Assembly: GCF_017795885.1 (NCBI RefSeq)
Contig: NZ_CP059297.1
Coordinates: 1,176,001-1,240,000, forward strand
From: Brevundimonas sp. AJA228-03
GTDB taxonomy: Bacteria; Pseudomonadota; Alphaproteobacteria; Caulobacterales; Caulobacteraceae
Length of the DNA: 64,000 nt
Direction: 5' to 3'
The translations under genes were made by a program, and so were the position numbers. The notes below the pieces were generated by a model, which saw nothing but the letters and a program-made list of their open reading frames with translations, was not told where the DNA came from and did no database searches. Of the stretch, positions 29,426-38,984 are shown piece after piece (positions within the stretch are counted from its first letter, which is position 1; each line of letters begins with the position of its first letter).

Positions 29426-30535
29426 ATGAGCAGACTCTGTGTCGTCGCCGCCGGGGGTACCGGGGGCCACATGTTCCCGGCCGAGGCCCTGGCCCGCGAG
29501 ATGGCAGGGCGCGGCTGGCGCGTGGTGCTGGCCACCGACCATCGGGGCGAGCAGTACGCCCATGCCTTTCCGGCCGAGGAACGGCTGGCGCTGGATGCCG
29601 CCACCGGCTCTGGCCCGGTGGCCCTGGCCAGGGCGGGTGTCGCCATCGTGCGTGGGGTGCAGCAGGCCCGCTCGGCCTTCACCCGTCTGAACGCCGATGT
29701 CGTAGTCGGCTTCGGCGGCTATCCGTCGGCTCCGGCCCTGCTGGCGGCGATCCTGCAGAAGCGCCCGACCCTGATCCACGAACAGAACGCCGTTCTGGGC
29801 CGCACCAACCGCATCCTGGCCCCCCATGTGCGCAACGTGGCCTCGTCCTTTCCGACGCTGGAACGGGCCAGCCCTGCCGTGAAGGCCCGCAGCCACGTCG
29901 TCGGTGCCCCCGTCCGCGCCGACATCCGCGCTCTCTACGACCGTGCCTACGCCCCGCCCGTCGATGGTCCTATCCGCATCCTGGTCACCGGCGGCAGCCA
30001 GGGCGCGCGAATCCTGTCGGAAACCACCCCCCGCGCGCTCGCGGCCCTGCCGGACGCCATCCGTCGTCGCCTGAAGGTCCAGCAGCAGTCGCGCCCCGAG
30101 ACCCTCGAAGCCGCTCGCCAGATCTACCTCGAGGCCGGGATCGAAGCCGAGGTCGCGCCCTTCTTCCGCGACATGGCCGGTCGTCTGTCGCAGGCCCATC
30201 TGGTCATCGGCCGGGCAGGGGCCTCGACCTGCGCCGAGCTGGCGGTGGCCGCCATGCCGTCGATCCTGATCCCGCTGAAGATTGCCACCGACGATCACCA
30301 GCGCCTCAATGCGAAACTGCTGACAGACGTCCACGCCGCCGGGATGATCCTGGAGGACGATGTGACGGTGCCGTCCATGACCGATGCTGTCGCGGCCGTC
30401 CTGGCCGACCCGGCGCGCCTGCCGTCCATGAGCGCCGCCGCCCGCTCCGTCGCCATCCCCGACGCCGCCCGGCGGCTCGCCGACCTGGCCGAGGCAACGG
30501 CGCTTTCTTCCCTCTCCCGGAGGGAGAGGGCTTGA
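29426..30535 (+). CDS. murG: UDP-GlcNAc--undecaprenyl-PP-MurNAc-pentapeptide GlcNAc transferase
   Basis: MurG converts lipid I to lipid II at the inner face of the membrane. The 369-residue GT-B enzyme has the GGTGGH donor loop near residue 11, the conserved GFGGYPSAPALLAA, HEQNAVLGRTNR and VTGGSQGARIL segments, and the UDP-GlcNAc site in VIGRAGASTCAELA. It is separated from ftsW and the rest of the cluster by about 10 kb and is on the opposite strand. The last residues (SLSRRERA) are encoded by an intergenic palindromic repeat into which the frame runs, so the natural C terminus has been lengthened or replaced. Confidence 0.96.
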   Translation: MSRLCVVAAGGTGGHMFPAEALAREMAGRGWRVVLATDHRGEQYAHAFPAEERLALDAATGSGPVALARAGVAIVRGVQQARSAFTRLNADVVVGFGGYPSAPALLAAILQKRPTLIHEQNAVLGRTNRILAPHVRNVASSFPTLERASPAVKARSHVVGAPVRADIRALYDRAYAPPVDGPIRILVTGGSQGARILSETTPRALAALPDAIRRRLKVQQQSRPETLEAARQIYLEAGIEAEVAPFFRDMAGRLSQAHLVIGRAGASTCAELAVAAMPSILIPLKIATDDHQRLNAKLLTDVHAAGMILEDDVTVPSMTDAVAAVLADPARLPSMSAAARSVAIPDAARRLADLAEATALSSLSRRERA

Positions 30536-30682
30536 GCGCCCGGGAGCCGTCAGGCGATCGGTCTTGCGCGAAAGGGTGAGGGGTTACGGTACGAACCGGT
30601 GAGGTCTCACCCCCTCACCCTTTCGGCTTGGCGCATCGCTTCCCCCCAACCTGATCGGGGGCTCAAGCCCTCTCCCTCCGGG
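30510..30682. repeat. Palindromic intergenic repeat, split by an IS1595-type element
   Basis: An inverted-repeat element with outer arms CCCTCTCCCGGAGGGAGAGG (from 30510) and CCCTCTCCCTCCGGG (30668-30682), the second arm being completed after the insertion at 32739-32744 (AGAGGG). Inside are secondary arms GAAAGGGTGAGGGG and CCCCTCACCCTTTCG. A second, uninterrupted copy lies at 38818-38984. The first outer arm lies within the 3' end of murG. Confidence 0.85.
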
Positions 30683-35689: not shown

Positions 35690-36583
35690 GTGGCCGCACA
35701 GACCGAACCGCTCTCCTTTCAGGATCTGATCCTCACGCTCCAGCGCTACTGGGGCGATCAGGGCTGCGCGATCCTGCAGCCCTATGACATCGAGGTGGGG
35801 GCGGGGACCCTGCATCCGGCGACGGTGCTGCGGGCGCTCGGCCCCCGGCCGTGGAAGGCCGCCTATGTCCAGCCCAGCCGCCGGCCCGGCGACGGCCGCT
35901 ATGGCGAGAACCCCAACCGCCTTCAGCACTACTACCAGTTCCAGGTCATTCTGAAGCCGAATCCCGACAACCTGCAGGAGCTGTATCTCGGCTCGCTCCG
36001 CGCCATCGGCATCGATCCGGCCCTGCATGACATCCGCTTTGTCGAGGACGATTGGGAGAATCCGACCGTCGGGGCCTGGGGCCTTGGCTGGGAAGTCTGG
36101 TGCGACGGCATGGAGGTGACCCAGTTCACCTATTTCCAGGGCGTCGGCGGGCTGGAGGTCGACGTCGTCTCGGGTGAGCTGACCTATGGGCTGGAGCGTC
36201 TGGCCATGTACGTCCAGGGCGTCGACAACGTCTACGATCTGAAGTTCACCCGGGACGGCACGACCTATGGCGAGGTCTTCCTCGAGAACGAGCGCCAGCA
36301 GTCTCAGGCCAATTTCCACGGCTATGACGTCGAGGGCCTGAAGCGCCGGTTCGAGGACATGGAGGCGGAGTCGTCGCGGCTGCTGGCCATGACCGGGCCG
36401 CAGGGTCAGCCACTGGTCCTGCCGGCCTACGACCAGGTCCTGAAGGCGTCGCACCTGTTCAACCTGATGGACGCGAGGGGGGCCATCGCGGTGGCCGAAC
36501 GCCAGAGCTACATCGGCCGCATCCGCGACCTGTGTAAGGCCTGTGCCCTGGCCTATGTCGAGCAAGAGCGGGGAGCCGCCTGA
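35690..36583 (+). CDS. glyQ: Glycyl-tRNA synthetase alpha subunit
   Basis: GlyQ carries the catalytic core of the alpha2beta2 glycyl-tRNA synthetase. The 297-residue protein has the typical start [20 protein letters not shown], the [18 protein letters not shown] motif and [24 protein letters not shown] start at 35690 fits the family N terminus. Its stop shares a base with the glyS ATG. Confidence 0.97.
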
Positions 36584-38817
36584 TGCCCCAACTCCTACTC
36601 GAACTCTTTTCCGAAGAAATCCCCGCCCGCATGCAGGCGGGGGCCGCGCGTGATCTCGAACGCATGGCGAGCGAACGGCTGAAGGCCGCCGGCCTGAGCT
36701 GGGATACCCTGACCACCTACGCCGGCCCGCGGCGGTTGACGCTCGTGATCGAGGGCCTGCCCGCCGCCACGCCGGATCGCTCGGAAGAGCTGAAGGGCCC
36801 CCGCGCCAACGCCCCGGAACAGGCGCTGGAGGGGTTCCTGCGCAAGACCGGCCTGACGCGCGACCAGCTGACCGAGCGCGACGGCGTCCTGTTCGCCGTG
36901 ATCGAGGAGGCGGGTCGCCCGACGACCGCCGTGATCGCCGAGACGGTGGACCAGATCGTCCGGGCCTTCCCCTGGCCCAAGTCGATGCGCTGGGGCTCCG
37001 GCACCCTGCGCTGGGTGCGCCCGCTGAAGCGGATCGTGGCCCTGTTCGACGGGGCCGTGGTGCCGTTCGAGATCGACGGCATCCGATCTGGTGACGTGAC
37101 CGAGGGCCACCGCTTCATGGGGTCGGGCCAGCCGTTTGCCGTGAAGGATTTCGCCGACTATCGGGCGAAGCTGGAACAGCATTTCGTCCTGCTGGATGCC
37201 GCCGACCGCAAGCTGAAGATCCTCGAGGCCGCCCGTGCCGCCTGCCAAACGCAAGGGCTGGAGCTGGTCGACGACGACGGCCTGCTGGAAGAGGTCGCCG
37301 GCCTCGCCGAATGGCCGACGCCGATCCTGGGCGACATGGACCCGCAGTTCCTCGACCTGCCGCCCGAGGTGGTCCGTTTGTCCATGAAGGTGCACCAGAA
37401 ATATTTCGCGGTGCGACGGCCCCCCTCGAGCCCTGAGCCATCTCCCCCCTCCGGGGGGAGTACCCGCGAAGCGGGGGAGGGGGGCCTGGCCCCCAACTTC
37501 ATCGTCGTCGCCAATGTCGAGGCCTCCGACGGCGGTGTGGCCCTGGCCGCCGGCAACAGTCGCGTCCTGTCGGCCCGCCTGAACGACGCCCGCTTCTTCT
37601 GGGACGAGGACCGCAAGACCGGCTTCGACGTCTGGAACGAGAAACTGAAGGGCGTCACCTTCCACGCCAGACTGGGCACGATGGCCGAGCGCGTCGACCG
37701 CATCGCCGCCCTCGCGCGCGAGATCGCCCCCCTCGTCGGCGCCGACCCCGATCAGGCTGAAACCGCCGCCCGCCTCGCCAAGGCCGACCTGGCCTCGGGC
37801 ATGGTCGGCGAGTTCCCCGAGCTGCAGGGGATCATGGGCGGCTACTACGCGAGAGCCTTGCCCCCCTCGAACCCTGCTCTGCAGGCTTCGGTCCCCCCGG
37901 AGGGGGGACATTTGCCCAGCCAATCTCCCCCCTCCGGGGGGAGTACCCGCGAAGCGGGGGAGGGGGGTTGTTCCAATGCCATCGCCGACGCCATCCGCGA
38001 CCACTACAAGCCGCAAGGCCCGGCGGACTCGGTCCCGACCGCGCCCCTGACGGTCGCTGTCGCCCTTGCCGACAAGCTCGACACCCTCGTCGGCTTCTTC
38101 GCCATCGACGAAAAGCCCACGGGGTCGAAGGATCCGTTCGCGCTGCGGCGGGCGGCGCTGGGGGTGATCCGGTTGATCGAAGCAGGGAATGTACCGATCG
38201 AACTGAGGGGCAACGATCTGCTCTTCAACCATATCAAGCGAATGCCAAACATGGCTGACGCCGTCTATTTGCAGGTGGCACCGATTCTCGATGCAATCAC
38301 GTTCGACTTCCTCAGCGATCGATTGGAGGTCTTTCTCCGAGACCGAGGCACCAATATCGAAACCGTTCGTGCTGCTTTTGGGCGGACCTTAAGTGGCTTC
38401 AAACCTGTCGATCTCATCGCGAGCGTCGAGGCGCTCGACGCCTTCCTCGCCACCGACGACGGGGCCAATCTGCTGGCCGGCTACAAGCGCGCCTCCAATA
38501 TCCTGAAGGCTGAGGAGAAGAAGGGGCCCGTCCCGACCGGCGAACCGGGTGTCCCCGACGGCATCCCCGCACAGGAGGCGACCCTGATCTTTGCGGTCAA
38601 GGGCGCGGCATATGAGGTCGCCAAAGCCCTCGAGGCCGAGGATTTTGCCGAGGCCATGCGCCAGCTGGCCCTGCTCCGCGCGCCCGTGGACGCCTTCTTC
38701 ACCGACGTCATGGTCAACTCCGACGTCCCCGAAGAGCGGGAGAACCGCCTGAAACTGTTGGGTCAGGTGCGCGACGTCATGGGCCGGGTGGCCGACTTCG
38801 GGCAGGTTTCCGGCTGA
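36583..38817 (+). CDS. glyS: Glycyl-tRNA synthetase beta subunit with two palindromic-element insertions
   Basis: GlyS binds tRNA-Gly and is required for charging. The 744-residue protein starts PQLLLELFSEEIPARM as expected; family length is about 690-700. The excess comes from two in-frame insertions of palindromic DNA, encoding the peptide PPSGGSTREAGEGG (37441-37484) and, in a longer insert (about 37857-37970), the same peptide again. Both lie in loops flanking conserved regions (MKVHQKYFAV before the first, MGGYYAR before the second), suggesting the enzyme tolerates them. The C-terminal anticodon-binding region is intact. Confidence 0.96.
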   Translation: MPQLLLELFSEEIPARMQAGAARDLERMASERLKAAGLSWDTLTTYAGPRRLTLVIEGLPAATPDRSEELKGPRANAPEQALEGFLRKTGLTRDQLTERDGVLFAVIEEAGRPTTAVIAETVDQIVRAFPWPKSMRWGSGTLRWVRPLKRIVALFDGAVVPFEIDGIRSGDVTEGHRFMGSGQPFAVKDFADYRAKLEQHFVLLDAADRKLKILEAARAACQTQGLELVDDDGLLEEVAGLAEWPTPILGDMDPQFLDLPPEVVRLSMKVHQKYFAVRRPPSSPEPSPPSGGSTREAGEGGLAPNFIVVANVEASDGGVALAAGNSRVLSARLNDARFFWDEDRKTGFDVWNEKLKGVTFHARLGTMAERVDRIAALAREIAPLVGADPDQAETAARLAKADLASGMVGEFPELQGIMGGYYARALPPSNPALQASVPPEGGHLPSQSPPSGGSTREAGEGGCSNAIADAIRDHYKPQGPADSVPTAPLTVAVALADKLDTLVGFFAIDEKPTGSKDPFALRRAALGVIRLIEAGNVPIELRGNDLLFNHIKRMPNMADAVYLQVAPILDAITFDFLSDRLEVFLRDRGTNIETVRAAFGRTLSGFKPVDLIASVEALDAFLATDDGANLLAGYKRASNILKAEEKKGPVPTGEPGVPDGIPAQEATLIFAVKGAAYEVAKALEAEDFAEAMRQLALLRAPVDAFFTDVMVNSDVPEERENRLKLLGQVRDVMGRVADFGQVSG
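37441..37484 (+). repeat. Coding palindromic element, copy 1 in glyS
   Basis: A 44-bp sequence identical to the copy at 37924-37967: it starts TCTCCCCCCTCCGGGGGGAG, has the inner hairpin TACCCGCGAAGCGGG, and ends GAGGGGGG, so the whole folds as nested hairpins. It is read in frame as SPPSGGSTREAGEGG. It is preceded by a CCCCCCTCGA motif also found in copy 2. Confidence 0.9.
37924..37967 (+). repeat. Coding palindromic element, copy 2 in glyS
   Basis: An exact duplicate of the 44-bp element at 37441. Here it forms the right part of a longer ~115-bp insert whose left part contains another inverted repeat (TCCCCCCGGAGGGGGGA, about 37890-37906). Read in the same frame as copy 1, it adds about 40 residues. 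Confidence 0.9.
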
Positions 38818-38984
38818 CCCTCTCCCGGCGGGAGAGGGCTTGAGGCTCGCAGAGCGCAGCGATGCGCCAGCCGAAAGGGTGAGGGGTTAAGGTGCGAAAG
38901 GGTGAGGGCATGACCCCTCACCCTTTCGCGCAAGGATGATCGCTGCGCGCTCATGCGCTCAAGCCCTCTCCCTCTGGGAGAGGG
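38818..38984. repeat. Palindromic intergenic repeat (full copy) downstream of glyS
   Basis: Begins directly after the glyS stop with CCCTCTCCCGGCGGGAGAGG and ends with CCCTCTCCCTCTGGGAGAGG at 38964-38984; the flanks CTTGAG/CTCAAG extend the outer arms. Inner arms are repeated GAAAGGGTGAGGG and CCCTCACCCTTTCG. Same family as the copy after murG. The remaining ~130 bases before ppdK contain no gene that can be supported. Confidence 0.85.

Follow-up and report, generated by a model that had tools for sequence, protein, structure and literature searches.

The window analysed here is the whole stretch of 64,000 nucleotides, positions 1176001–1240000 of a Brevundimonas genome that consists of a single contig of 3.04 Mb. 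Within it lies glyS, whose product carries the Pfam domains tRNA_synt_2f (E 1.3e-174) and DALR_1; the named GlyS relatives nearest to this protein are from Brevundimonas. Two elements sit in frame in the gene (Table 1), one between YFAVR and LAPNF (site 1) and one after GGYYARA (site 2). The initial annotation had reported an identical 44-bp palindromic sequence twice in glyS, with the same orientation, frame and translation. Comparison confirmed this for a repeated unit (unit B) one base longer than reported, both copies being in phase with the glyS ATG and both reading the same peptide. The reported rise in protein length from about 700 to 744 residues also agrees with the 698 aa of GlyS in the nearest relative on the gene tree (L046, 93% identity over core columns).

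Table 1. Coordinates of glyS and of the two inserted elements with their parts, given as positions of the window
Feature	Coordinates	Strand	Basis
glyS, glycyl-tRNA synthetase beta subunit, 744 aa	36583..38817	+	ORF; ATG at 36583; Pfam PF02092, PF05746
Site 1 element, 67 bp, closed by a 9-bp outer stem	37419..37485	+	Fold and allele comparison
Unit B copy 1 (reported core), read SPPSGGSTREAGEGG	37440..37484	+	Sequence comparison
Site 2 element, 107 bp, inverted doublet: unit A reversed, spacer, unit B	37861..37967	+	Fold and alleles
Unit A, inverted relative of unit B, + strand reading PPSNPALQASVPPEGG	37861..37909	-	Sequence; relation to unit B by eye
Unit B copy 2 (reported core)	37923..37967	+	Identical to copy 1 over 45 bp

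Unit B is laid out as a hairpin, a second small hairpin and a tail. On direct reading all six of its frames are open, so the frame in use is not forced by stop codons. With up to 3 mismatches allowed, the hairpin CTCCCCCCTCCGGGGGGAG matched 5 times, at 3 places of the window that all lie in glyS; shuffled sequence gave 0.10 matches on average, and chance was rejected as the origin of the repeats. The reported core is not itself the element, as outer stems at both sites delimit a larger inverted doublet; by itself the 44-bp core folded no better than shuffles (z -1.09, 24/200 as good). The site 2 element folds end to end as a closed cloverleaf with an 8-bp outer stem (CCCCCCTC/GAGGGGGG), a long central stem and two arms (z -5.95, with 0/200 shuffles folding as well), and the hairpin of unit A lies at 37891–37909. 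At site 1 the outer stem is kept and the inner part is short (z -2.06, 6/200 shuffles as good). Two inverted units folding as one, a feature of REPINs, were thus found at site 2 and in shortened form at site 1. The relative L050 carries a full doublet at site 1 with junctions like those of the window, which suggests that the window's site 1 element is a deletion derivative of such a doublet.

The ends and surroundings of the elements were also inspected. No GTAG or CGTC tag was found at the element ends at site 2, and one GACG (CGTC on the other strand) lies at 37415, just outside site 1, where it is absent in L050. No target duplication was visible at the insert edges when alleles were compared by eye. 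The window's own genome has 2 exact occurrences of ACTTGCCCCCCTC and 2 with 1 mismatch, one of these in glyS, and a genome search with the 13-bp end alone showed no clear excess (83 matches vs 72 in the control). In a predicted GlyS model, weak as a whole (mean pLDDT 62) and used for disorder at the two inserts only, both inserts were coil with pLDDT <50, that of site 1 placed between two strands and that of site 2 between two helices.

We compared 90 glyS loci, made up of the 30 best matches and 60 picked among the 128 genus genomes with a match; L163 was left out of the gene tree (missing motif), which therefore has 89 rows. Because the loci were partly hand-picked, the following fractions of filled and empty alleles are not population frequencies. 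Site 1 was empty in 74 of the 89 genes, held a palindrome-type insert in 14 and had a short indel in one (L028). These inserts comprised 10 of unit B type, 3 copies of an ADLQVR element and one other inverted repeat (L143, by eye; z -1.84); the tree label 'other' at this site gathers L051 and L114 (both unit B type), L143 and L028. Site 2 was empty in 64 genes and filled in 25 under six labels: PSPLEGEG (9), PPLDGEG (6), SPLGGEG (4), the window's type (3), short PLEGEG (2) and SPARGRD (1). In L033 short PLEGEG has the same flanks as the PSPLEGEG type, of which it is probably a remnant; this would leave five families at site 2. The labels rest on peptide motifs, and the kinds were compared by eye rather than by formal clustering, and most site 2 inserts appeared by eye as inverted doublets with variable spacers.

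The folds of these inserts were scored against shuffles. At site 2, all 23 inserts of at least 60 nt folded below z -2 (median -6.03), the statistic omitting the 2 of 25 that are shorter. At site 1, 6/14 inserts folded below z -2 (median -1.83) and 8/14 no better than that. Controls below z -2 numbered 5/77 for a third variable GlyS region and 6/90 for core windows. Two places in GlyS are empty in most of the genes read and hold palindromes of several kinds in different species of the genus; the site is as remarkable as the element. On the tree, the parsimony minimum was 13 filled/empty changes at site 1 (the short indel of L028 counted as filled) and 18 at site 2, with 15 and 21 changes of label; this is a quick gene tree (32/86 inner branches at 95 or more, 32 open) on which gain and loss are not separable, and import of alleles by recombination could inflate these counts.

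Alignment of the alleles shows both of the window's inserts to be lineage-specific. In L046, site 1 is empty (DPATGK) and site 2 holds a single, different short PLEGEG palindrome, and both sites are empty in the glyS of L048. Filled and empty alleles together point to insertion at both sites. The initial annotation had expected an alignment to show clean insertions; empty alleles do exist in relatives, but at site 1 the insert replaces the six residues DPATGK, standing in place of 18 bp of the empty allele, and so is not a clean insertion. An ancestral origin of the segments, which the initial annotation had named as refuting its reading, was rejected both by the empty alleles in the genus and by the solved GlyS beta chain 7yse_C, which has few residues at both places and which we take to be that of E. 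coli. Outside the genus, 20 glyS loci from other genera of the family were read: site 1 was empty in 16 read by regular expression and in 3 read raw, and 1 had no open frame. At site 2, 8 of 15 loci read by regular expression were short and 7 long. Three of the long stretches folded below z -2 (L232, L237, L238), L231 reached -1.7, and L233, L234 and L236 did not fold in this way, so not every long stretch is a palindrome. An assembly artefact was rejected as well, as like inserts lie at like places in many other genomes and protein records.

The same alleles bear on whether there was any recent movement at all. A similar picture would result if each site had received one insertion in the genus ancestor and the inserts had since diverged by descent and been lost repeatedly, with alleles exchanged by recombination, and some clades do have a single type by vertical inheritance (at site 2, PPLDGEG in L034, L035, L036 and L038). 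Exchange would also fit the stretch upstream of site 2, where the window's gene is nearer to L026 than to its sister L046 (59/60 and 58/60 vs 55/60 and 54/60 in overlapping stretches). By eye, however, the cores and arms of the site 2 types are unlike one another, so that the replacements, at least, appear to have been separate events. An identical 39-bp core is moreover present in G120, whose GlyS is 85% identical over residues 1–426, which argues against great age, and we consider a single old insertion per site unlikely.

A second possibility is copying within the gene, with the unit at site 2 serving as the source of the one at site 1 through template switching or gene conversion between palindromes. 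In its favour, the two glyS units match at all 45 positions, while the copy that this genome carries in its two-lipoyl E2 gene differs at 2/39 positions, and in P0003 site 2 is filled while site 1 is empty. Against this, L050 (G120) has a full doublet with the same 39-mer at site 1 and an empty site 2, which shows that filling of site 1 does not depend on site 2; we rate such copying as improbable, to about the same degree as one old insertion. Import of site 1 from an L050-like donor was rejected, since only the nearest bases are closer to L050 than to L046 and no long block is shared.

The initial annotation had proposed a tally of the core across genomes. We searched 131 genus genomes with a 39-bp core at up to 3 mismatches (0 control matches) and found 24 copies in 16 genomes, with 0–4 per genome. 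All 24 lie in genes, where REPINs would have many, mainly extragenic copies, and 23 share frame +0, the remaining one (L062) being on the other strand. The tally thus agrees with in-frame copies in genes, but the copies are not scattered: as far as a search with one 39-bp consensus in one genus goes, which could miss diverged copies, they are confined to glyS (9) and three 2-oxoacid dehydrogenase subunits, namely a two-lipoyl E2 (8), a one-lipoyl E2 (5) and a lipoyl-bearing E1beta (2). The glyS copies were assigned by coordinates and 14 of the 15 others by Pfam, L075 by peptide alone; L067 was counted as one-lipoyl E2, its lipoyl part being beyond the contig end.

In the window's own genome the hairpin, again at up to 3 mismatches, occurred at 14 places. 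Nine were in the same four genes (glyS 3, and 2 each in the two-lipoyl E2, E1beta and one-lipoyl E2), and at the remaining five the coding frame was unclear or borderline. The linkers of the lipoyl-bearing E2 and E1beta of this genome hold several in-frame palindromes (L018, about 890–1450; L019, about 710–825 and 2137–2250), which in the two-lipoyl E2 linkers are of two kinds.

Since 23 of the 24 genus copies use one frame and the peptides are linker-like, flexible Pro/Gly linkers could have evolved under selection on the protein alone, with palindromes as a by-product of GC-rich codon use. Three observations make this very unlikely. First, L062, L099 and L104 read the same DNA on the opposite strand and in a different frame: the two-lipoyl E2 carries it one way in L003, the opposite way in L062 and L104, and both ways in L099. 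Both frames in use give Pro/Gly/Ser-rich peptides, a pair that the inverted doublet offers in either orientation. Second, the inner 5-bp stem of unit B at site 1 exists in two main versions (CCCGC/GCGGG and CCGCC/GGCGG) and two single variants; over the 10 site 1 copies, tallied without a minimum-pair filter, 48/50 pairs were Watson-Crick, with 1 G-T and 1 mismatch. These compensated changes show that pairing is kept while the peptide changes (STREAGE, STAEGGE). Third, the other variable region of GlyS, used above as a fold control, is not palindromic.

Copies of this and of other palindromes were examined with a coding test whose codon model was trained on the window's genome. This test found a frame for 28/52 distinct copies, missed L067 (an E2 by Pfam) and the E1beta copy at the edge of L074, and scored 235/400 random positions as coding, so that a single negative result carries little weight. 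In a 464-kb sample, none of the 24 places examined for four other palindrome families showed a coding frame, L182 15923 being borderline. For PLEGEG-type palindromes in relatives, no coding frame was found at 13/16 loci tested (one of these, L266, is inside glyS), so that the families entering glyS do not all live in genes. In the relative G046 (L261, L256), PLEGEG-type palindromes lie not only within the glyS match but also upstream of it, at distances of 16 bp and about 0.5 kb, suggesting local spread. The window also holds intergenic inverted palindromes, CCCTCTCCC...GGGAGAGGGCTTGAG, at 38818–38984 and at about 30510–30680, one pair following directly on the glyS stop; these are a separate REPIN-like family.

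Against the possibility that the core occurs nowhere else, copies were found in other genomes of the genus and outside it. A scan of the collection with a 30-bp degenerate core matched 37 stretches, from Caulobacteraceae and from MAGs of other groups (Phycisphaerae, Acidimicrobiales, Acidobacteria, Ignavibacteria and others). The suggestion of a Caulobacterales family able to enter reading frames is therefore borne out as regards reading frames, but the sequence is not purely Caulobacterales. One Caulobacteraceae MAG had 1 of its 3 copies in another gene (L078, VWA_CoxE) and no coding frame at the other two (L079, L087), and no coding frame was found in MAGs of other Proteobacteria (L086, L103). 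Apart from L101, a copy in a MAG named simply bacterium for which a frame was seen, the examined copies outside Proteobacteria gave no coding frame in a test that was not trained for them and whose codon model is unsuited to MAGs of other phyla. Several contigs of one Phycisphaerae MAG (L077, L090, L095, L100, L105, L109) and of one Acidimicrobiales MAG (L085, L088, L089, L096, L097) carry the 30-bp core. Its presence in other phyla may reflect convergent sequence, transfer or binning error.

Taken with the allele comparisons, the folds and the intragenic copies, we think it probable that the glyS segments are copies of a REPIN-like, non-autonomous palindromic element that entered in frame and was kept in flexible loops. 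Such an element would measure about 105 bp and be built as an inverted doublet whose inverted ends are close to TTGCCCCCCTC; it would have entered glyS in frame in this lineage. Insertions may occur widely, with selection retaining only those that are in phase, rich in Pro/Gly/Ser and placed in surface loops or linkers tolerating some 15–60 extra residues; the reading frame would then protect genic copies from random deletion. In this lineage site 1 may have been filled later than site 2 and have lost its inner hairpin. As to the mover, a Y1/RAYT transposase (PF01797) was found in 4/131 genus genomes and had 0 matches in the window's own, so a RAYT-driven REPIN in the present genome is unsupported. 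Either the mover acted in the past, or it acts in trans, or copies move by recombination or template switching between palindromes. A wider proposal, which we offer tentatively and regard as somewhat doubtful, is that in Brevundimonas the element family persists essentially inside proteins, in flexible parts of GlyS and of the three dehydrogenase subunits only, that its movement needs no Y1 transposase, and that it shares its docking at GlyS site 2 with other families in the genus and in other genera of the family.

The initial annotation had likened the repeats to the coding palindromic elements of Rickettsia, and the two in-frame insertions support that likeness. Rickettsia palindromic elements are described as 105–146 bp long and as lying in phase within 19 reading frames, a good many of which encode conserved proteins, and the gmk product with such an element is described as translated and active (PMC2229807). 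The two systems share in-frame palindromic elements in conserved proteins, with empty orthologues found here for the filled glyS, a gene recognized in this genome from its intact frame and domains. They differ in that the genus holds near-identical copies in four genes only and the GlyS places hold several kinds; the likeness is one of description. Intragenic REPs with GTAG or CGTC tags, single or dimeric, are described in ORFs of several species, including tRNA synthetase genes, as are double REP insertions in one gene and differing REPs at about the same recB site in two Xanthomonas species (Di Nocera et al. 2013, PMC3733652). CGTC REPs are there mostly alphaproteobacterial and without a dedicated transposase; the words Caulobacter and Brevundimonas are absent from the main text of that article. 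The glyS element differs from these REPs in having no such tag and in the shared site, filled and empty many times across the genus.

REPINs are described as inverted doublets of palindromic units that form one hairpin or clover, with solitary remnants, and the REPs there as extragenic and associated with a RAYT gene (PMC3116915). In contrast, glyS-type copies are intragenic and no RAYT was found in the window's own genome. Because defining features of tagged REPs and of REPINs were not found for it, the element is not assigned to either. From the same bacterial order, the Caulobacter CerM-associated intergenic repeats (CIR) are described as having stops in all six frames and as never lying inside genes (PMC2229807), unlike the glyS element, which sits inside genes. 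With intragenic REPs and Rickettsia coding palindromes in print, the kind is already known; literature searches gave no report of such insertions in Brevundimonas among the matches listed. What is new is the recurrent docking of several families across a genus; differing REPs at about one site have one precedent, recB in Xanthomonas.

The glyS gene offers a natural series, with two places found empty, with a single unit, with a full doublet, with an apparent collapsed remnant and with other families. In a genus with many sequenced members, this makes it testable by what route elements of this sort get into genes, what peptides the host protein tolerates and whether movement occurs without a RAYT; peptides spanning PPSGGSTREAGEGG are what translation of the inserts would yield. 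The series also suggests how small repeats may survive, by turning into protein parts, and it is a warning for annotation that repeats can be the source of stretches typical of GlyS in Brevundimonas and of linkers in dehydrogenases. The third variable region, at 38176–38307 of the window between LGVIRL and FLSDRL of GlyS, is hypervariable across the genus, ranging from 19 to 148 residues and being very different even in close relatives, with two downstream sequence kinds distinguished by eye.
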